In this document: piece by piece, positions 39,600 through 48,315 of the stretch
Layout: each line of letters opens with the position of its first letter
Numbering within the stretch: position 1 is the first letter of the stretch
Assembly: GCA_016788115.1 (NCBI GenBank)
Contig: JAEURR010000005.1
Span: 186,001-250,000, forward strand
Length of the DNA: 64,000 nucleotides
Direction: 5' to 3'
Source: Chthonomonas sp.
GTDB lineage: Bacteria > Armatimonadota > Fimbriimonadia > Fimbriimonadales > Fimbriimonadaceae
The notes under the pieces: model-generated
Seen by the model: the letters and a program-made list of their open reading frames with translations, nothing else
What the model was told of the DNA's origin: nothing
The model's database searches: none
Position numbers and translations under genes: made by a program

Positions 39600-42287
39600 T
39601 TACTTTTTCTTGTGCGGGTCGGGGAAACGCTCGGTCGGAGCCGGACCGTTTCGCTCGACATTGGCTCGCGGCATCGCAGCGTCGTCTCGTGCGCCCTTAC
39701 CCACCACCTTGGCGGTGATGAAGAACACGATCTCCGTTCGTTGGCGCGAAGTATCCGTGCGCGAGAAGAGCTTGCCGATGATCGGGATGTCCTTCAGGAT
39801 CGGGATACCGCTGACTTCTCGGCGATCTTCATCGCGGATGAGGCCGCCAAGAGCAATCGTCTCGCCGTCGTCCATCATCACATTGCTCTGAGCGATGCGC
39901 TCGCTGGTCTGCGGGAGCTGACCACCACCGGGAACCGGGGTGAAGCCGCGCAGGTAACTAACGACCGGACGGAGATCCATGAAGATGCGATTGTCTGCAC
40001 CGATCCTCGGGAGGATCGAGCAGCGCACGCCGACTCGGACCGAATTGGTCGTGACGGTGACGCCGTTCTGCGAAGACTGAATCGACTCGATGTAGCGGAT
40101 GACGTCGCCGACGAAGTACTCCGTTTCGCGACCGTCGGTCGCGAGGAAGTTCGGGCGGGCGATCAGGCTGCGGTTGCCGTTCAGCGCATCGAGGGTCCCG
40201 AGTACCGAGTACTTGTCCACTCCGCTCGTACCAGCCGAGATTGCGCCTGGGGATCCCGCGGAGAGGCCCGGATTCTGATTCAAGCGAACCAGGTTCACCA
40301 CACCACCCGTCAAGATGCTCCAGTCAAGACCGACCTTTAGGGCCTCTTCCTTGCTCATCTCCATGACTCGCAGGTCGATCGCGACTTGCTTGGGCTCGAT
40401 GTCGAGCTTGTCCAGCAGCGCTTTCGCTCGGTCCAGCTGGCTCTTGTTCCCTCGCAGGAACAGTCGCATGGGCTTTGCGACACGCTCCGTGTCACTGAAC
40501 GGGAGAGTGATGCCCTCGACGTCGGCCTTTTCCGTCTTCACGCCGACTTCTTGAACCTTTGGTCCCTCGGTCGATTCGCTGACGTTCTCGTTGCCACTTT
40601 CCGAACTCGACTTCGTCGACTTCTTGGGAGGGGCTTCGTAGATACGCGGCTGGCTAACCGCTCCAGGCGGAATATCCACTCGGATACCAGGGATCGCAGA
40701 CATCAGCTGATCACGCAATGACCGCGGCTCCGAGAACCGGATGTCGTAGATGATGGAATCGTCCGACGCACCGTCAAACTCCTCAAGGAGCTTCTTGGCG
40801 CGCAGTACTTCTTCCTTCCGGCCGACCATGATGATCGCCTGTCGCTCGCTGCCGAGCGGCGAGGGGTACATCTCAATGTTCTGGAACGCACTGGCTTTCA
40901 GGTTGCGGACCGTATCCAGCAGGTTCTTCGCCGGCATGGACTCCGACGTGATCAGGTACGTCTCCTGAACCATGTCGGCGTTCTCAGAGATCGGTACACC
41001 CTTCACCGCACAGATCTGTTTGTCGATGCTGTGGATCAGGGGCTCAGTTCGGTCGAGAACCGCTGTTGGGCCGACCAGAATCACGTAGAGCGTGCTAAAG
41101 GTCTTGGGTACGGAAGTACCCTTCGGATCAGGCTTGCCGTCAGGACCGGCCGCAGGAGTTGCCTTTTCACCGTCGTCATCACCCGCAAGCAAGATGTCAT
41201 ATCCACCGCCTGCGGTTTCCGCTGGGAAGGCCCGCATGACTGCCGAGCGAATCTGTGCCGGCTCGCCACTGTAGATGGGGACCAGTCGAGTCTCTGAAGG
41301 TGTGTTGGCCGTCTTACTGACCGCCTTCAGGAGATCGTTGAACTTGTCCTTCTGGGCAACGACGTAGGTTCGGCCCACCAATGCATATCGCAAGTCGGCC
41401 ATCGCGGTGACGATGTCCAGTGCCTGCTCGGTGGTGACGTTGCTGAGCTTGACGGTGAGGTTGCCCTTGATGTCCGGCGCGGTGACGATGTTCGCCCCCG
41501 ACTGCAAGGCAAGCGCCTTCAGCACGAGCGAGACATCGGTGTTCACGAAGTCGATCGAGACATTGCTCGCCGATCGAACCGCAAAGACTCCCGCATCAGT
41601 TCCCGGGTTAGAGGCTTTCACCACGGGCTTCGACGTGTCTTTGGGATTCGGCTTGTCGGCCGGTTTCGGTGCGGGTTTCTTCTCTGTGGGGTCGGTGAAA
41701 GCGTCGGCGATCACCCCGTCCATCGGCTGATCGACCTGCGGCTTGTCCAGCGGATCGATAATCGACGGGAGGCGTCCGTCTCCGCCATTTGAGTTCTTCG
41801 GCTCGACGGGATTCAGCACCGGAGTGCGTCCGTCGCCCGATCCGGCAGTCACGCCAGCGGCTTCGAGGAACGCGTCCTTCGGACTCGGCACCTTGCCCGC
41901 AGCGGCGGTACCGATCAAAACATCAACGCCGCCTTCGACAGGCGTAACGGTAGGCGTGATCGCGGAGTCCATGCGGAAGTGGACACGCACGCGTGGCGGG
42001 CGAGCACTGAACCAACCGGTTTGCACCGTGGTCACTCCGGCCGTATCGACGCGCAGCAGCTTAACCGCGGAGCCCAACGAGGCGGCAAACTCCAAAATGA
42101 ACGAGCGCCCGCTGTTTACGCGAAGCTGCTTCGGCTCACCCAGTTCAGTGCCACGAATGGCTACCTTGAGGGATGTACCGACCTTTTCAAACGTTACTGC
42201 GTCCAACTTAGGGGCTGCCTGAGCGGCCGCCACGAGTGCGACCAAACTCAGGGTTAATCCCCATCGAGATCTAATTAGTCTTTCCAG
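39600..42287 (-). CDS. pilQ: Type IV pilus secretin PilQ
   Basis: An outer membrane secretin of about 895 residues through which the pilus passes. After a signal peptide come an AMIN-type peptidoglycan-binding domain (about 30-125), an STN/N0 domain (VSIDFVNTDVSLVLKALALQ region), two N1/NolW-type domains (one carrying a Ser/Lys/Glu-rich insert) and the secretin barrel with the end motif ILKDIPIIGKLF. No ATG, GTG or early TTG serves the signal peptide. AGGAGG at 42293-42298 points to a CTG five bases further on, giving LERLIRSRWGLTLSLVALV. A TTG at 42245 would cut the signal peptide. Overlaps the preceding gene by 17 bases. Confidence 0.93.
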   Translation of the reverse strand: MERLIRSRWGLTLSLVALVAAAQAAPKLDAVTFEKVGTSLKVAIRGTELGEPKQLRVNSGRSFILEFAASLGSAVKLLRVDTAGVTTVQTGWFSARPPRVRVHFRMDSAITPTVTPVEGGVDVLIGTAAAGKVPSPKDAFLEAAGVTAGSGDGRTPVLNPVEPKNSNGGDGRLPSIIDPLDKPQVDQPMDGVIADAFTDPTEKKPAPKPADKPNPKDTSKPVVKASNPGTDAGVFAVRSASNVSIDFVNTDVSLVLKALALQSGANIVTAPDIKGNLTVKLSNVTTEQALDIVTAMADLRYALVGRTYVVAQKDKFNDLLKAVSKTANTPSETRLVPIYSGEPAQIRSAVMRAFPAETAGGGYDILLAGDDDGEKATPAAGPDGKPDPKGTSVPKTFSTLYVILVGPTAVLDRTEPLIHSIDKQICAVKGVPISENADMVQETYLITSESMPAKNLLDTVRNLKASAFQNIEMYPSPLGSERQAIIMVGRKEEVLRAKKLLEEFDGASDDSIIYDIRFSEPRSLRDQLMSAIPGIRVDIPPGAVSQPRIYEAPPKKSTKSSSESGNENVSESTEGPKVQEVGVKTEKADVEGITLPFSDTERVAKPMRLFLRGNKSQLDRAKALLDKLDIEPKQVAIDLRVMEMSKEEALKVGLDWSILTGGVVNLVRLNQNPGLSAGSPGAISAGTSGVDKYSVLGTLDALNGNRSLIARPNFLATDGRETEYFVGDVIRYIESIQSSQNGVTVTTNSVRVGVRCSILPRIGADNRIFMDLRPVVSYLRGFTPVPGGGQLPQTSERIAQSNVMMDDGETIALGGLIRDEDRREVSGIPILKDIPIIGKLFSRTDTSRQRTEIVFFITAKVVGKGARDDAAMPRANVERNGPAPTERFPDPHKKK

Positions 42288-43164
42288 AACCGCCTCCTAT
42301 CCGTAGTGTCACTTTCTTGCCCTTGTGCTCGACAACGACGCGATCACCCCGAATAGCTACGATCTTGCCTCCGCCTAGTTCACCGCCTAGTCGGACCATG
42401 CGCTGACTGCCCGAGTCGTCCTGAAGGATCGCGAGCGGACTCGTACCCTGGACAACCCCCATCAGGCTGTACGCATATTCATCTGGGACTCGAAGGGGCG
42501 TGCTAGGTGCGAGCTTGGGGCCGCCAGCTTTGGCCGTCGGCTGTCCCGTGATCGCGCCGCCTGGAACCACCGGAGGTAGACCCTCTAACCCCAGCGGTGG
42601 CAACGGCGCGGCACCCGCCGCCACGTTGCGCGCAATCTCCGCATTTCGTCCAGGTCCCTTCATCGTCGTTGGATTCGTATTCGGTTGTGTCACCGCAAGT
42701 GCCGGTTTATTGCCCTCGCGGGTTCGTTCCTTGTCTCGCGCTGGTGCAGGAACCGAAAACGGATCCCGTATGTCCAGCGGGGAAAGTGCTACATCACTCT
42801 TCAGTGACGATTCAACTCCCTGAGTAGTCGCGACATTCTGCGCGGTATCCGCATCTGTGGTCCCTAGGGTTCCGGCTTCGTCCGTCCCGACATTGGTTGC
42901 GTTGTGGGGATTGATCCCTTCGTCAACCGCTTCGGGTGCGACCGGATTGGCAGCATTGTCCAGCGCGCCGTCCGAGCCGGCGATCGTCTTGGGCTCTTCC
43001 GAAGCCTTGACGTGATTGGCCTTGGACGACTTCGTCACCTTTTTCGTCGCCTTGGCGGCGGTCGAGGAACCGCTGCCCATGAACTGGAATGCGCCGATGC
43101 CAGCGAGTACCACAACCATGGCGCCGACGATGAGGACTTTCTTCTTGTCTGCAGGATTACTCAT
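42271..43164 (-). CDS. PilP-like pilus assembly protein
   Basis: A 297-residue protein with a short cytoplasmic N-terminus and one membrane helix (about 9-29), then a long low-complexity linker and a small C-terminal beta domain (about 220-297) with PDEYAYSLMGVVQG and LGGGKIVAIRGDRVVVEHKGKKVTL (in part). That C-terminal part fits the homology-region domain of PilP/GspC, which links the inner membrane complex to the secretin. Unlike PilP it has no lipobox. Position between pilO and pilQ supports the call. Confidence 0.75.
   Translation of the reverse strand: MSNPADKKKVLIVGAMVVVLAGIGAFQFMGSGSSTAAKATKKVTKSSKANHVKASEEPKTIAGSDGALDNAANPVAPEAVDEGINPHNATNVGTDEAGTLGTTDADTAQNVATTQGVESSLKSDVALSPLDIRDPFSVPAPARDKERTREGNKPALAVTQPNTNPTTMKGPGRNAEIARNVAAGAAPLPPLGLEGLPPVVPGGAITGQPTAKAGGPKLAPSTPLRVPDEYAYSLMGVVQGTSPLAILQDDSGSQRMVRLGGELGGGKIVAIRGDRVVVEHKGKKVTLRIGGGSGKTN
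42293..42298 (-). promoter_or_regulatory. Ribosome binding site AGGAGG deciding the pilQ start
   Basis: A full AGGAGG inside the end of the preceding gene, five bases before a CTG in the pilQ frame. It is too far from the first TTG (about 45 bases) to serve that codon. Confidence 0.6.
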
Positions 43165-43825
43165 TGTTCGTGTCCTCGTTGGTGGAATCGGATCGATCGT
43201 TGTCCTTCTCCGGGAAGGCGTACGCCTTCAGGGTCAGCGTCAACTCTAGCTGAGGCGAACCGTCTGGCCCGTACTTCTTCTCCGGACCGTTCAGCTCGTT
43301 CAGGCCGACTGTGTAGACCTCAACAATCTTGCTGAACTCTTGGAGTGAATTGATGAAATCGAGAATCGCGGGATAGAAACCCGTTGCATTCACTTCGATT
43401 TGCCACTCGTCATAAGGCTTCTTGGCAGGCTGCTTCTTCTTGGCCTTCTTCTTGTCTTCTTCCGAGGCATTGGGGTCAACCTTGACCTTCTTCTCTTCGA
43501 TGCGCTTCGGCTTGACACCGGTGATGGTCAAGCCCTTGGCGTTTCCAAGAGTTTCAAGCTCGGTGACAAGCGTCGGGATGTACGCGTTCTCTGCGACGTT
43601 CGCCTCAAGGTGATCGAGAAACTGCTGCGACTCTTCAACTTCGGTTCTGATCTTGAGCTGCTTCGCCGCGACATCATCCTCGTCTTGAATCTGCTTCTTG
43701 ATCTCGTCACGCTTGGACGCCGCGCTTCCACGCTCCGACATCAACCAATAGTTTGCGCCGCTGCCAGTGACAACCGCGACGGCTGCGAGAATCGCAAAGA
43801 CCTTCATTCGTTTGCTTGTGTTCAT
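43157..43825 (-). CDS. pilO: Type IV pilus inner membrane protein PilO
   Basis: A 222-residue protein with one membrane helix (about 8-29), a coiled coil (about 33-75) and a ferredoxin-like domain (about 80-205: VTELETLGNAKGLTITGVKP and VNATGFYPAILDFINSLQEF in part). A Lys-rich insertion, about residues 115-140, interrupts the domain. Forms the alignment complex with PilN. Starts inside the end of pilN (ATGA) and overlaps the next gene by eight bases. Confidence 0.85.
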   Translation of the reverse strand: MNTSKRMKVFAILAAVAVVTGSGANYWLMSERGSAASKRDEIKKQIQDEDDVAAKQLKIRTEVEESQQFLDHLEANVAENAYIPTLVTELETLGNAKGLTITGVKPKRIEEKKVKVDPNASEEDKKKAKKKQPAKKPYDEWQIEVNATGFYPAILDFINSLQEFSKIVEVYTVGLNELNGPEKKYGPDGSPQLELTLTLKAYAFPEKDNDRSDSTNEDTNNE

Positions 43826-44484
43826 GCCGATGCCTCCGCCTCCGATTTACGACGATCGCTAAATCCTGCCTTCTTCGTGCTCTTGGATTTCGGATCCTCT
43901 TCCAAGGTGCCAGCGACTCGGGCGATGATCTCGAAGCTCAAGACCTGGTGCTCCTGAACGCGGTCCATCTCGGTGTACTTCAGGTCCCACTTGTCCATGG
44001 CGCTGCACAACTGCAGTCGCTGCATGAACGAGCCAACACGGCCCTGAGAATTCTGGTCCGTGGTCTCACCCGCCATCGTCTTGCCCTTGATCGAAAACTG
44101 GACGCCCTCGTTCGACTTGCTCGACTTACTGCGGATGTCCGTCAACCACAGGCTCTCGGGCGTGCTCGTCGTCATATGCTTCAGGATCTCGGTCCACTTG
44201 CGGGTCATTTCCTGAGCGTTCTGCAACGTTTGCAGCCTTGGCTTGAGTTCGGCGAGGTCCTTCTCCATGACCGAAATGTCTTTCAACATCGGCTGGATCT
44301 TGGAGAGGTTCTTCTTGAGATCGGCGGTCTCCCCGTCGACCCCTTCCTTCGCGATAATTTGGAACCCCGCGAGGACGGTGAAGAGTGTGGTTGCACCGAC
44401 GAACCCGACAAAGGCGAATCTCGCTTTGCGTTCGTTCTGCTGCTGCAGCATTCGCTGCTCATGAATCAGATTGATGTACGGCAT
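43822..44484 (-). CDS. pilN: Type IV pilus inner membrane protein PilN
   Basis: A 220-residue protein. The N-terminus MPYINLIHEQRM is the conserved PilN peptide that docks in PilM (usual form INLLP). A membrane helix follows (about 24-45), then a coiled coil (about 55-95) and a ferredoxin-like domain with VGSFMQRLQLC. The C-terminal tail is Lys/Glu-rich. It lies 18 bases after pilM. Confidence 0.85.
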   Translation of the reverse strand: MPYINLIHEQRMLQQQNERKARFAFVGFVGATTLFTVLAGFQIIAKEGVDGETADLKKNLSKIQPMLKDISVMEKDLAELKPRLQTLQNAQEMTRKWTEILKHMTTSTPESLWLTDIRSKSSKSNEGVQFSIKGKTMAGETTDQNSQGRVGSFMQRLQLCSAMDKWDLKYTEMDRVQEHQVLSFEIIARVAGTLEEDPKSKSTKKAGFSDRRKSEAEASA

Positions 44485-44502: not shown

Positions 44503-45591
44503 TTAGGCGGCGTGCGAGTAGCTCCTCATGGCAAGTCCCGATGCCACCGACAGGTCGGCACCTTGTCCAAAGAACTGGTCGCCCACGTAGGCGAAGCGTG
44601 GATTGTCAAAGACTCCGGCCGCGTAGACCTTGAGGCCAAGGCGGTTGCTCATGTAGTCGGCGATTCCCTGCATCTTTGCGCCACCACCGCTCAGCAGCAT
44701 CCACGTGACCGGGTTCGAAGATCCGGCTTCTGCTTGCTGCGACTGGAAGTAGTTCAAAGAGCGGCGCATTTCACGCACGAGGTCGTCCAAGTGCGGCTGG
44801 ATCACGCGCAGAGGCGGGTTCTCCGCTGGCTGATTGTCCTTCAGCAGGCCCAACAGGTCAAGCTGCGTCTTGCCCTCTTCCGCATCTTGGTAGCTGAGCT
44901 TGAAGTACTTTTGCAAAGCTTCCGTCAGGGCCAGACCGCCCTGATTGATCGTACGGGTCATGGCGAAACTACCCTTGTCGATCACGCTCACGTTCGTGCT
45001 GGTGTGACCAAAGTCCACAAGCGCGACGGTGTCCTTGTTCAGATCGATGTTGTAGTTCGCTTGCACCAGCGCTCGGTATGCAGCGAATGGCTCGATGTCG
45101 ACCGACTCGACAGGCAAACCCGCAAGCTCGCACGCCTTGATGCGAAAGTCCACCAGGTCGCGCGGAGCGGCGGCGATGATGACGTCCATCTGTCCGTCCT
45201 CAGTCTCGCCAGCAATCTCGAACTCGACATAGCTGTCTTCGACGCTGGACGGGATGTAACGGCCTGCCTCGAACTTAATCGATTTGCGGAGCATGGCTTC
45301 CGACATCTTCGGAACGCGCACGCTGCGGACCACGACCGATGCGCCTGCGACCGACACGTGGCAACCACTGATCGGCATCTTTGCGTTTCGGACGAGGGTC
45401 TGGATCGCTTGCGACAGGGCCTCGGGATCGGTCACGATCGAATCACGCACCGAATCGGGCGGCGTCGGAACGGACAGCACCCGAGTGAGTCGCCAGCCCG
45501 AGGTCATCGGTTCCATGGCAACGAGCTTGATCGAGTGGTGACCGATATCAAGACCGACGAGATTCTGTTTCTTGCCAAATTTAAGCGGCAT
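44503..45591 (-). CDS. pilM: Type IV pilus assembly ATPase-like protein PilM
   Basis: A 362-residue actin-like protein of the inner, cytoplasmic part of the pilus machine. Nucleotide-binding motifs are NLVGLDIGHHSIKLV (phosphate 1), TVALVDFGHTSTNVSVI (phosphate 2) and MLLSGGGAKMQGI (adenosine). The 1C domain that binds PilN lies in the first third. Its start overlaps the end of the helix-turn-helix gene by 11 bases. Confidence 0.93.
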   Translation of the reverse strand: MPLKFGKKQNLVGLDIGHHSIKLVAMEPMTSGWRLTRVLSVPTPPDSVRDSIVTDPEALSQAIQTLVRNAKMPISGCHVSVAGASVVVRSVRVPKMSEAMLRKSIKFEAGRYIPSSVEDSYVEFEIAGETEDGQMDVIIAAAPRDLVDFRIKACELAGLPVESVDIEPFAAYRALVQANYNIDLNKDTVALVDFGHTSTNVSVIDKGSFAMTRTINQGGLALTEALQKYFKLSYQDAEEGKTQLDLLGLLKDNQPAENPPLRVIQPHLDDLVREMRRSLNYFQSQQAEAGSSNPVTWMLLSGGGAKMQGIADYMSNRLGLKVYAAGVFDNPRFAYVGDQFFGQGADLSVASGLAMRSYSHAA

Positions 45592-46030
45592 GTTCTGTCC
45601 CCTCCTGCCCCGCCTGCTTCTGCAGCCAGGCGTCCACCGACGATTTCAGGAACCGCCAAGTACCTTCTGCCTGGAACGCAGGAAGAGCACCCGATGCAGC
45701 CATCTCATCGACGGTCGCCATGTGCAAGCGCAGGTAGCTGGCCACTTCCTTGGTCGTCATGACCGCGCGGTGCGTGGCCAGTGCTCCTCGCAGCAGCGAA
45801 TGCACTTGTTCCTGGGTGAGGAACAGCTCGAGGCGAACGATGTTCATCCCCGGGGTCGCCTGGGCAGCATTCGTTGCCCGTTCAAAATCGGACTGATCCA
45901 CGGTCGGATCGGATTCGTAAGCATGGGCCACGGCAACCTCCATGGGGGCCTGATGGGCGATCGGCTCATCGGTTCGGGCAGCAGCAGCGGCTTGCACCGT
46001 TGCATTGCGAATGGCGTCCACAAGTCTCAT
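45581..46030 (-). CDS. Helix-turn-helix (excisionase/MerR-like) protein in the pilus operon
   Basis: A 149-residue protein. The first 70 residues are Ala-rich and poorly conserved in look, then FLTQEQVHSLLRGALATHRAV. The last 50 residues form a winged-helix DNA-binding domain of the excisionase/BldC type: MTTKEVASYLRLHMATVDEMA, in part, with GTWRFLKSSVDAWL. The start ATG overlaps the ATPase stop (ATGA), so the protein is made with the pilus parts. It could regulate the operon or bind DNA at the pilus base. Both are inference. Confidence 0.72.
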   Translation of the reverse strand: MRLVDAIRNATVQAAAAARTDEPIAHQAPMEVAVAHAYESDPTVDQSDFERATNAAQATPGMNIVRLELFLTQEQVHSLLRGALATHRAVMTTKEVASYLRLHMATVDEMAASGALPAFQAEGTWRFLKSSVDAWLQKQAGQEGTEHAA

Positions 46031-46842
46031 GCGGCAGCTCCCAGGTGTTGAGTGCACACGTCGTGCATCATGTAGGCGTCGATCAAGCTGACTTTCTGGC
46101 TGGCACCCACCAAAAGTGCATGATCCGCGAGAGTCGAGATCATGCGCGGGTAGCCCTGGCTCACCTTATGGAGTTGGTAAACCGCATCGGGGGTGAAGAC
46201 GTTTCGCTCGCCGCTGAAGCCCGCTACGCGTAATCGGTGGAGGATCAGTTCGCCGGTCTCCTGGACATCCAGCGGTTCCAGCGCGCATCGCACTGAGAGT
46301 CGCTGTTCGAGCGCAGGAACCTTTGAGAGCTTCTCTCGTAATTCGCGCTGGCCCAGCAGAATGAGCGTGATGAGGAACTGATCGTTGAGCTGGCAGTTGA
46401 GGACCATGCGCAATTCCTCGAACGTGCCCGCGCTCTTGATCAAGTGCGCCTCGTCGATCATCAGGACCACCCGCTCGCCGCGGGTGTAGAGCTCAAGCAA
46501 CCGCTCGTGCAGTTGCTGAATGAGCTTCTGGCGATTCTTGTTGCCTGGCTCGGAATGCAATTGCGTCAAAATCTCGGCCAACATCTGCGTCGGTGACAAG
46601 ATTGGGTTGACGATCAGGACCAGTCGGTGCTGGCGTGCATCAAGCTCTTCGACGAGCTTTCGGCTGACCGTGGTCTTACCCAGACCAATGTCACCGGCAA
46701 GCAGCGCCGCACCCATGTTTCTCTGGATGGCGTACTGCAACATCGTCAGTGCGTCGGCATGCCCACGACTCAGATACAGAAATCGTGGGTCTGGCGTCAA
46801 TCCAAACGCTGGCTCTTTGAGTCCCCAGTAAGATTCGTACAT
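46027..46842 (-). CDS. ExeA/GspA-like AAA ATPase
   Basis: A 271-residue AAA+ ATPase opening the pilus operon. It begins YESYWGLKEPAFGLTPDPRFL, in part the ExeA hallmark, with Walker A GDIGLGKTT near 50-58 and Walker B VVLMIDEAH near 124-132. ExeA helps place the secretin through the cell wall, but this form lacks the C-terminal peptidoglycan-binding domain and membrane helix, so it is probably cytoplasmic. The 231 bases upstream, divergent from an MFS gene, should hold the operon promoter, which I cannot pin down. Confidence 0.85.
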   Translation of the reverse strand: MYESYWGLKEPAFGLTPDPRFLYLSRGHADALTMLQYAIQRNMGAALLAGDIGLGKTTVSRKLVEELDARQHRLVLIVNPILSPTQMLAEILTQLHSEPGNKNRQKLIQQLHERLLELYTRGERVVLMIDEAHLIKSAGTFEELRMVLNCQLNDQFLITLILLGQRELREKLSKVPALEQRLSVRCALEPLDVQETGELILHRLRVAGFSGERNVFTPDAVYQLHKVSQGYPRMISTLADHALLVGASQKVSLIDAYMMHDVCTQHLGAAA

Positions 46843-47073
46843 TGATGGTTTCGCTCCGTTCCTTCTAGCCCAGTGATCATTTCGGAGAGATCAGGTCAAA
46901 TCCTCACCCTCCACCTCGCGCCTCACTTTTCGATGGGGTGCGCGCACGCACCGCAACTCTGTCGTGCCACTTCGGGAGATGCGGTCGGCAAGACAAAATT
47001 ACGAGACCCCCTTTCGAGTGCCAAAATCAGCGGTAATTGACAGTAAGGGCGTTCCCCATTCGCGGTCATTTCT

Positions 47074-48315
47074 ATGTTTCGGGTCTTGGAAATCACGCCG
47101 TTTCGACGGCTATTGATCGGTCAGGCCGTGTCGCAATTCGGCGACATGCTGTACATGCTCATGTTCCTGTACATGGTGCAGCGGCTCACCGGGAACGCCA
47201 TGATCGTGGGGTGGATCGGAGCCGTCCAAGCACTGCCGCCGTTGCTGCTCTCGCCTTACGCCGGGGTCCTTGCCGACCGAGTGGATCGGCGAACGGTCCT
47301 ACTTGGCACTGACCTGTGCAGCGCGGCGCTGATGCTCGGGCTGGCGGCCTACCTGACGTTCGACGCCACGCCGCCGCTCTGGCTGATCTTCGCCTCGGCG
47401 ACGCTCCTTGCCTCGGTAAACACGTTCTTCTTGCCCGCGAAGTCAGCGGCGATCCCGAGGCTCGTCCCGGCGGACCGGTTGCAGGAGGCGAACTCGCTCT
47501 CGGCGACGACCCAGCACTTTATGCCTCTGCTCGGACTGGCGATCTCCGCGGCGGTGCTGGGACAGCTCGAACTACTTGCGCCGAACGCCCTGTTCCCCGT
47601 CGCGGCCGCGTGCAACGGCCTCACGTTCTTAGTTTCGGCACGCGCGATCTGGCTACTCCCCCAGCTCGCCCCAGACACTACCGACCGCGAGGAACCGCAC
47701 TTCGGACGCGACCTGCGAGAAGGTTGGCAGGCATGTCTGAAAGACGCCGTCCTGTGGGTCTCTGCTCTCCAAGCGCTGCTGGTGAACCTGTTTATCGCAC
47801 CGTTCATGGTGGTCCACCTCGCGGTCAACAAACAGTGGTTCGACGACCGACTGCGTACGGTGTCGATTTTCGAATCGGCATTCATCGGTGCTGCGGTGAT
47901 CATGGCGCTGATGATGCCGCGTCTCAGGATCGTGCGACCGGGCATGGCGTTCATCGGTTCGATGCTCGCTATCGGCGTACTCGTCGCGTGCATGGCCTTC
48001 GCGCCGTGGTTCTATCCGTATCTTGTGCTGAACTTCTTGTGCGGCCTGGCGCTGCCCATCGCCCAGATCCCCATGCAGATGTACTTTCAGACAGCGGTAC
48101 CGGACGCGCTGAGAGGTCGCGTCCACTCGTTCATGACGATGTCGGCGATGGTGGCCATCCCGCTCAGCAACACCTTTGCGGGGGTCGGCGTCGCGCGGCT
48201 CGGGGTCTCCACGATGTTTCTGATCATGGGGGGTGGGATGATTCTCTCCGCCGCCATCGGCCTCGCTCATCCGCAGTACCGCCGCTCGCGGCTCCCTTCG
48301 TCAGCGGTGCGCTAG
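47074..48315 (+). CDS. MFS transporter (EntS-like group)
   Basis: A 413-residue membrane protein with about twelve helices. It opens FRRLLIGQAVSQFGDMLYMLMFLYM, in part typical of the MFS-3/enterobactin exporter group. The loop GVLADRVDRRTVLLGTDL is the conserved DRxxRR motif between helices 2 and 3. Probably an efflux transporter in the inner membrane. Substrate unknown. Its 3' end overlaps the convergent SbtA-like gene by 15 bases. Confidence 0.88.
   Translation: MFRVLEITPFRRLLIGQAVSQFGDMLYMLMFLYMVQRLTGNAMIVGWIGAVQALPPLLLSPYAGVLADRVDRRTVLLGTDLCSAALMLGLAAYLTFDATPPLWLIFASATLLASVNTFFLPAKSAAIPRLVPADRLQEANSLSATTQHFMPLLGLAISAAVLGQLELLAPNALFPVAAACNGLTFLVSARAIWLLPQLAPDTTDREEPHFGRDLREGWQACLKDAVLWVSALQALLVNLFIAPFMVVHLAVNKQWFDDRLRTVSIFESAFIGAAVIMALMMPRLRIVRPGMAFIGSMLAIGVLVACMAFAPWFYPYLVLNFLCGLALPIAQIPMQMYFQTAVPDALRGRVHSFMTMSAMVAIPLSNTFAGVGVARLGVSTMFLIMGGGMILSAAIGLAHPQYRRSRLPSSAVR

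Follow-up and report, generated by a model that had tools for sequence, protein, structure and literature searches.

An ExeA-type ATPase and a helix-turn-helix partner ahead of pilM in Fimbriimonadaceae: a possible soluble assembly module

We analysed a 64,000-nucleotide stretch of a Chthonomonas sp. genome (Armatimonadota, Fimbriimonadaceae; assembly GCA_016788115.1, contig JAEURR010000005.1, positions 186,001 to 250,000), referred to here as the window. It contains an operon related to type IV pilus (T4P) and type II secretion system (T2SS) loci, which opens with genes for an AAA+ ATPase (46027..46842) and a protein ending in a helix-turn-helix (HTH) domain (45581..46030), followed by pilM. 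The two genes form a conserved unit. We give an even chance to the reading that the pair makes up a soluble module akin to GspA/GspB or MshM/MshN, whose HTH partner would be used mainly for protein contacts. All operon features lie on the minus strand of the window, and the evidence is computational throughout.

Gene order and presence in related genomes

A search with the ATPase returned 50 loci, 34 of them with at least 60% ATPase identity (record titles mostly Armatimonadetes or Fimbriimonad-) and the other 16 at 27–46%. The HTH gene lay directly after the ATPase gene in 33 of the 34 close loci, the contig of L031 stopping inside the ATPase. PilM came next in 32 of those 33, the contig of L006 ending first, which leaves the order ATPase, HTH protein, PilM in 32/32 testable loci. 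Homologues of the HTH and Pil proteins were sought by tblastn at 1e-3, and none was found in the 16 loci at 27–46% identity. An earlier reading of the window from its letters alone (the sequence-only reading) had tied the pair to the pil genes, and had named beforehand a pair standing without pil genes in most relatives as the result that would speak against this. The survey of relatives upheld the tie, with PilM next in every testable locus. A clear departure was seen only in G112, whose pair has moved as a unit and is separated from pilM by about 177 kb. G115 has upstream genes in common with G112, and its contig ends 40 bases past the HTH gene, leaving the position of pilM unreadable.

Presence of the three genes was scored in 22 genomes of the window's family, with E < 1e-90 as the threshold for a PilM orthologue. 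PilM was present in 14, the ATPase in 7 and the HTH protein in 5, strictly nested: the HTH protein occurred only alongside the ATPase, and the ATPase only alongside PilM. This nesting suggests that the HTH protein needs the ATPase, which in turn needs PilM. The genomes share ancestry, so the counts are not independent events. Direct reading of the loci of G095 and G124 placed PilM directly after the ATPase with no HTH gene between, and six genomes (G084, G085, G090, G092, G097 and G113) have pilM with neither gene in front. Across the phylum, 291 Armatimonadota genomes were searched with a profile built from the HTH protein; 158 had a match, 83 of these being in the window's order, and absences are soft where just 12 candidates were scored. 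Outside that order, among the matches listed, mostly the HTH domain alone was covered. The clearest exception is G058, which has the ATPase, the HTH protein, an ACT-type gene (identified by eye) and then a PilM at 32% identity.

Features of the ATPase and its partner

The ATPase has 271 residues, starts MYESYWGL and carries the Walker A motif GDIGLGKTT and the Walker B motif VVLMIDEAH. Pfam AAA_22 matched at 2.6e-22, and the best NCBIfam model, the XrtA/PEP-CTERM ATPase TIGR03015, covered residues 1–264 at 5.1e-58. Since its 196.6 bits fall below the cut-off of 324.5, we did not file the protein as an XrtA member. Its full-length profile match and its Walker motifs place it among the ExeA/GspA/MshM/XrtA-type AAA+ ATPases. 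It is not a GspA (ExeA) proper, which would add a membrane segment and a periplasmic peptidoglycan-binding domain at the C-terminus: the chain stops at the AAA+ fold, and no peptidoglycan-binding family is among the 17 Pfam families listed for it. This agrees with the sequence-only reading, which had described an ExeA-type ATPase without that domain. In an AAA_22 scan of the 2.4 Mb genome it was the sole strong match (81.8 bits; the next scored 37.1). The AlphaFold model (mean pLDDT 92.5) lies nearest to Cdc6/Orc1 (Z 20.7), TnsC (20.6) and MuB (19.2), which are ring- or filament-forming ATPases, and this leaves room for DNA contact. No solved structure was matched by sequence at 1e-5. Tandem ExeA-like ATPase genes, two or three in a row, were seen in L035 and L038.

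The partner starts with GTG at 46057 in the list of open reading frames (ORFs). We prefer ATG at 46030, giving 149 residues, because this start overlaps the ATPase stop codon in an ATGA (46030–46027) and relatives agree with it. The predicted order of parts is an N-terminal helix, a loose linker, a conserved central segment (residues 62–88, VRLELFLxxEQ..., 45767..45847, from the alignment of HTH proteins) and an HTH_17 domain (residues 90–139, 45614..45763). The domain scored 50.3 bits against a cut-off of 27 (3e-13), and the NCBIfam excisionase model TIGR01764 scored 39.2 against 28.8, both in line with the sequence-only call of an excisionase/BldC-type HTH ahead of pilM. Membership of the BldC family itself failed, with 17.4 bits against the 77 that its family model demands and the DNA contacts mostly lost. 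Nor was a T2SSB domain found, HTH_17 being the only Pfam domain in the protein; a genome-wide T2SSB search had zero matches, but its positive control also matched nowhere.

The AlphaFold model of the partner has a mean pLDDT of 76.3, with block means above 90 across residues 91–140. Its nearest solved folds are BldC (Z 7.4), excisionases and MerR-type proteins, with CbpM (Z 5.3) also listed; all these matches are middling (Z below 8). Searching solved structures by sequence gave a single weak match to Xis.

A conserved N-terminal motif in the partner and its parallels elsewhere

Column statistics for the HTH protein are based on 31 of the 34 rows, three near-identical ones having been removed. 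Columns 1–10 (consensus MNLxDAIRxA) are among the best conserved of the protein: A6, R8 and D/E5 are kept in 31/31 rows and N2 in 29, the window having R2. In the window the motif reads MRLVDAIRNA (46001..46030), and its conservation together with parallels elsewhere makes it a candidate ATPase-docking peptide. The pattern [DE]A[LI][KR] occurred within the first 20 residues of 34/34 HTH rows and of 2/1103 other ORFs in those loci; in the window it picked out the HTH gene alone among 255 ORFs. A looser pattern matched 33/34 rows and 12/1103 others. All 34 rows have what defines the class of motif partners, a short motif near the N-terminus in a gene directly after the ATPase.

When our first regular expression was applied to 16 loci of other phyla, it matched a single irrelevant ORF (with two starts). 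We then have two sets of loci with which to compare. The first comprises 30 loci with same-family ATPases from seven genomes of other phyla, in which the gene after the ATPase often starts MSIIYDALKK, MSLILDALKK, MGKITDALKK, MVRIADILKR or MVRISDIFKK. The later set comprises 29 loci, one each from 29 other genomes, all of the phylum of L035; L183 had no ATPase match and was dropped, leaving 28 next genes, with 133 mechanical ORFs of at least 120 residues from both strands as control. A regular expression fixed before the test matched 16/28 next genes and 0/133 control ORFs, and a wider pattern, MS-x-[IL]-x-x-AL, drawn up by eye after the fact, matched 28/28. These partners have MSLIxDALKKA-like starts, the motif beginning at an inner start codon in L184, L189, L192, L198 and L205.

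A PilM-like gene came next in 24 of 30 loci (the 29 of the later set plus L150). Ten of the 24, all cut by the end of the locus, were checked. TIGR01175 was the best NCBIfam model in 10/10, always below its cut-off, and Pfam PilM matched six, three above cut-off and three below (L177, L183 and L188), with no match in L150, L181, L193 or L198. Those whose Pfam match is absent or below cut-off we regard as divergent. With such genes following the partners of the later set and of L150, the order ATPase, motif partner, putative PilM is present outside Armatimonadota. In the first set the PilM profile found PilM in L150 alone of the 30 loci, and motif partners stood in L147, L149, L154, L162 and L163 with no PilM found in the locus. 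For this reason the motif appears to track the ATPase.

The C-terminal parts of the partners vary, with TPR in L150, a weak T2SSB match in L147 and an HD domain in L036, L037, L040 and L163. HD-domain genes after ExeA-like ATPases (L036/L158, L037/L162, L040 and L163) mostly start RISDIFKK or RIADILKR. Eight plasmid regions, our own choice among 60 of 77 records, widened the range. An annotated GspB starts MSYILDALRRA, the XrtA kinase of L248 starts MSRIEEALARA, and in an MSHA-type locus the ATPase is followed by a gene starting MSLLNEMLKDL. Of the kinases in four Rhodobacterales plasmid loci, two start MEKLQxALEKA and two have less similar strings. The neighbour of a transposon ATPase on a plasmid had no such motif.

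Two other arrangements were seen. In three loci of other Armatimonadota classes (L128, L129 and L130) the ATPase is followed by proteins with a common RRKLDELFADEPYLSATMKA-like motif, with or without a basic HTH_17 domain; the motif part had no Pfam match. In L171, L172 and L175 (Omnitrophota) and in L127 (G275, Armatimonadota), a small gene for a MerR-type HTH protein sits just ahead of that for an ExeA-like ATPase, identified by Pfam in L127, L171 and L172 and by eye in L175. The row in L171 is a MerR gene, the ATPase, a T2SSC-type protein (just below cut-off) and a secretin, which by gene order and profile matches is a second, separate pairing of HTH and ATPase in a predicted secretin operon.

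DNA-contact positions of the HTH domain and the upstream element

The sequence-only reading had called the partner a DNA-binding protein. The HTH fold stood up, and the residues that would touch DNA mostly did not. BldC contacts DNA through Lys26, Arg30, Lys33, Thr27, Thr29, Trp31 and wing residues 46–48, as given in PMC5859096. We matched these columns by alignment to a BldC sequence, in agreement with the ranges of the structure comparison. Lysine or arginine was found at the Lys26 column in 4/31 rows, at Arg30 in 10/31 and at Lys33 in 2/31. The Lys33 column is acidic in 20/31 rows and the Thr29 column in 14/31, and the Arg47 column holds Trp in all 31. Few positions of the domain vary more than those exposed on the recognition helix, which is unlike a reader of a fixed operator, because such a reader should keep its helix. 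The net charge of the domain is close to neutral (mean −0.3 over 34 rows, versus +1, +2 and +7 for the genome's other three HTH_17 domains), and read against DNA binding this is suggestive only. A MerR-fold protein that binds a protein is known in CbpM, described in PMC4063869 as lacking the DNA residues.

Two observations point the other way. In the wing, arginine or lysine occupies residue 126 (the Arg48 column) in 31/31 rows and residue 124 (position 46) in 24/31. The HTH partners of L128 and L129 are basic, with a domain net charge of +5, and on this basis DNA binding may be ancestral and its loss lineage-specific.

Ahead of the ATPase gene, many relatives carry a promoter-like element of approximately the form CTGAGGTTT-N12-CCGATAA-N3-TACTGGG, about 60–70 bases upstream. 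It resembles a sigma-28 promoter. A 34-base profile was trained on 15 loci; L011 was kept out of training, as was a nine-locus subgroup with different upstream sequence (L004, L010, L016, L017, L024, L025, L026, L028 and L029). Of the 34 regions upstream of the ATPase, 21 scored above every one of their 100 shuffles, and 13 of these 21 had been used in training. Within the nine-locus subgroup L010 alone did so, and we do not rely on it. The window's own copy (TGAGGATTT ... CCGA ... CACTGGG, 46868..46911) is weak and not significant (score 5.6; 7/100 shuffles as good). A strict pattern drawn from these loci matched in 5/61 family genomes, against 1/61 for a backward control, and 4 of the 5 matches lay, by coordinates, just upstream of the ATPase–HTH pair.

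The profile also matched before pilM where neither gene stands in front: no shuffle of 100 was as good in L143 and L144, with weaker matches in L142 (4), L145 (6) and L141 (11). It was not found before pilM in L138 or L135 (56 and 86 of 100 shuffles as good). In G095 (L139), which has no HTH gene adjoining, it stood before the ATPase with 0/100 shuffles as good; it was not found in G124 (L140: 36) or before the G112 pair (L134: 9). Because in some genomes it is recognisable before pilM with neither ATPase nor HTH gene in front, the element seems to belong to the operon rather than to the HTH gene. A gene of MFS type by eye (47074–48315, plus strand) diverges from the ATPase gene; homologues lie upstream of the ATPase in 4/34 loci, and a similar-looking gene in L140.

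The foremost alternative, also raised by the sequence-only reading, is that the HTH protein is an operon regulator that binds the promoter before the ATPase gene and couples expression of the pil genes to ATPase state. The HTH_17 domain, BldC as best structural match, the conserved element with its strict pattern mostly just upstream of the pair, and the basic domains of partners in other classes all speak for it. However, the element is kept in some genomes before pilM without either gene, and in G095 without an adjoining HTH gene, while most positions aligned with BldC's DNA contacts carry no basic residue and those on the recognition helix vary. We consider such a regulator unlikely.

The operon and its relation to known systems

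The overlap of the HTH gene with pilM is 11 bases, so that the ATGA coupling described by the sequence-only reading applies to the ATPase–HTH junction and not to the next one. Its label pilMNOPQ also held in part. PilM (44503..45591) scored 221 bits with TIGR01175 (cut-off 133). A PilN-like protein starting MPYINLIHEQR (43822..44484) matched Pfam weakly (20.2 bits, cut-off 22.8), and PilO (43157..43825) was identified by Pfam. The protein in the PilP position (42271..43164) has a T2SSC (GspC-like) domain by Pfam and NCBIfam. The secretin (39600..42245, start codon unsettled; Pfam and NCBIfam) is of GspD/PilQ type and nearer to GspD (168.8 bits, against 153.5 for PilQ, both under their cut-offs). 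Because the 'PilP' matches T2SSC and the secretin favours GspD, we describe the predicted operon as T4P/T2SS-like rather than clearly a pilus operon. Elsewhere in the genome (G000) there are ten T2SSE-family ATPase matches, one under cut-off, five of them within 10 kb at about 190–200 kb of contig C6.

In GspA/GspB (ExeA/ExeB), as here, an ATPase gene is followed by that of a partner with ALRRA/ALKKA-like first residues, and the pair lies beside a secretin machine. The differences are an ATPase without the peptidoglycan-binding domain and a partner with an HTH in place of a T2SSB domain. The likeness to MshM/MshN lies in an ExeA-like ATPase adjoining Pil-type genes and a secretin, and in L150, where a motif-bearing TPR protein takes the partner's place and is followed by a PilM-like gene; however, the partner here has an HTH, not TPR, and no mshE or mshG gene was recognised in the operon. 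A published model of MSHA-type systems makes mshA, mshE, mshG, mshL and mshM mandatory (PMC6668835). The MshM-like ATPase and the secretin are in the operon, and the T2SSE-family matches are elsewhere in the genome. The XrtA/PEP-CTERM ATPase provides the best family model and has a kinase with a comparable start, but the score is under cut-off and the neighbours here are pil rather than polysaccharide genes.

As for the HTH domain, BldC and the excisionases share its fold, and the Glu16–Arg22 pair of BldC is retained (E at 95 in 30/31 rows, R at 101 in 31/31), whereas the DNA contacts are mostly lost and a long N-terminal extension with the motif is present. CbpM has in common an HTH fold without DNA-contact residues and differs in its binding partner, a J-domain.

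A possible assembly module and the alternatives

We propose that the ATPase and the HTH protein would work together in the cytoplasm as an assembly module like GspA/GspB (ExeA/ExeB) or MshM/MshN, with the AAA+ ATPase as engine and the HTH protein as its dedicated partner. The N-terminal helix MNLxDAIRxA would dock on the ATPase, with the loose linker after it. The central segment and the HTH-fold domain, replacing a membrane anchor with a TPR or T2SSB part, would bind other parts of the PilM-PilN-PilO-GspC-secretin machine, and the module may help to assemble or control it. According to PMC4098917, the ATPase domain of ExeA is required for its complex with ExeB, and GspA proteins without the periplasmic part occur in Alteromonas (PMC9239104).

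Further points weigh against this proposal, most of them concerning the motif. Many ATPases of the first set lack an adjoining motif partner (for example L152, L160, L161, L164, L166 and L167), and L155 and L151 have tandem ATPases. Because every locus of the later set belongs to the phylum of L035, its 28 cases are not independent. A profile made from those 28 motifs alone ranked the window's HTH protein 11th of 255 ORFs and put the median HTH protein just in the top 5% of the background; the stretch of likeness is short, with the aspartate displaced by one residue towards the N-terminus. In the four Rhodobacterales plasmid loci a Wzz-type gene without the motif lies directly after the ATPase and the kinase comes second, and the L248 kinase lies upstream of its ATPase. 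GspB of E. coli K-12 has no motif and is an unhelpful control. Having no T2SSB part, the HTH protein cannot hold the secretin as GspB does. In Vibrio cholerae, deletion of mshM or mshN left surface MSHA pili undiminished, as reported in PMC4624765.

The HTH protein might instead use its N-terminal peptide to bind PilM, in the manner of the PilN tail, and compete with or tune PilN. In the same loci PilN starts xxINLIxEQR-like and the HTH protein MNLxDAIR, the HTH gene adjoins pilM, and the PilN tail binds PilM. Motif partners also stand beside ATPases where no PilM was found in the locus, which counts against PilM as the target. So does one case, G109, in which the ATPase has dropped to 30% and the HTH protein now starts MNLFQRIFHHL, with PilM still 50% identical. 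We rate this lower than the regulator. Lowest of all, and quite improbable, is the sequence-only suggestion of a DNA tether or uptake factor linking the pilus base to DNA: an ATPase model closest to DNA-ring ATPases, an HTH-type partner and the presence of ComEC favour it, but a common fold proves no function, related ATPases occur in secretion, pilus and polysaccharide loci (though one is in a transposon-like locus), and ComEC says nothing for or against uptake, being present in 30/30 tested genomes irrespective of which pil and HTH genes they have.

Returning to the assembly module, we tentatively extend it to the family, at a level of confidence below that for the module itself. ExeA/GspA/MshM/XrtA-type ATPases might be a plug-in platform for one N-terminal peptide of the A-[LI]-[KR]-x-A type, to which varied tools are attached: T2SSB or TPR parts, tyrosine kinases, HD domains and, in this Armatimonadota order, a soluble HTH. 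Here, a Cdc6/TnsC-like ring with HTH subunits might sit at the base of either a pilus or a secretion apparatus, possibly touching DNA. We offer the general docking motif as a hypothesis; our literature search, to which subscription papers were mostly inaccessible, returned no relevant paper for four motif strings and one unrelated match.

Fimbriimonas ginsengisoli is reported in PMC4072686 to have pilus genes and to be non-motile, with pili probably for attachment. Little is understood of how GspA/GspB and MshM/MshN act as assembly factors, and an HTH domain in such an operon need not mean a regulator. The candidate docking motif turns up in an annotated GspB, in an MshN-like TPR protein, and among tyrosine kinase and HD-domain partners. 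If our proposal is true, a soluble two-protein version and this common motif would together provide one simple rule for how the ATPase family chooses its clients.

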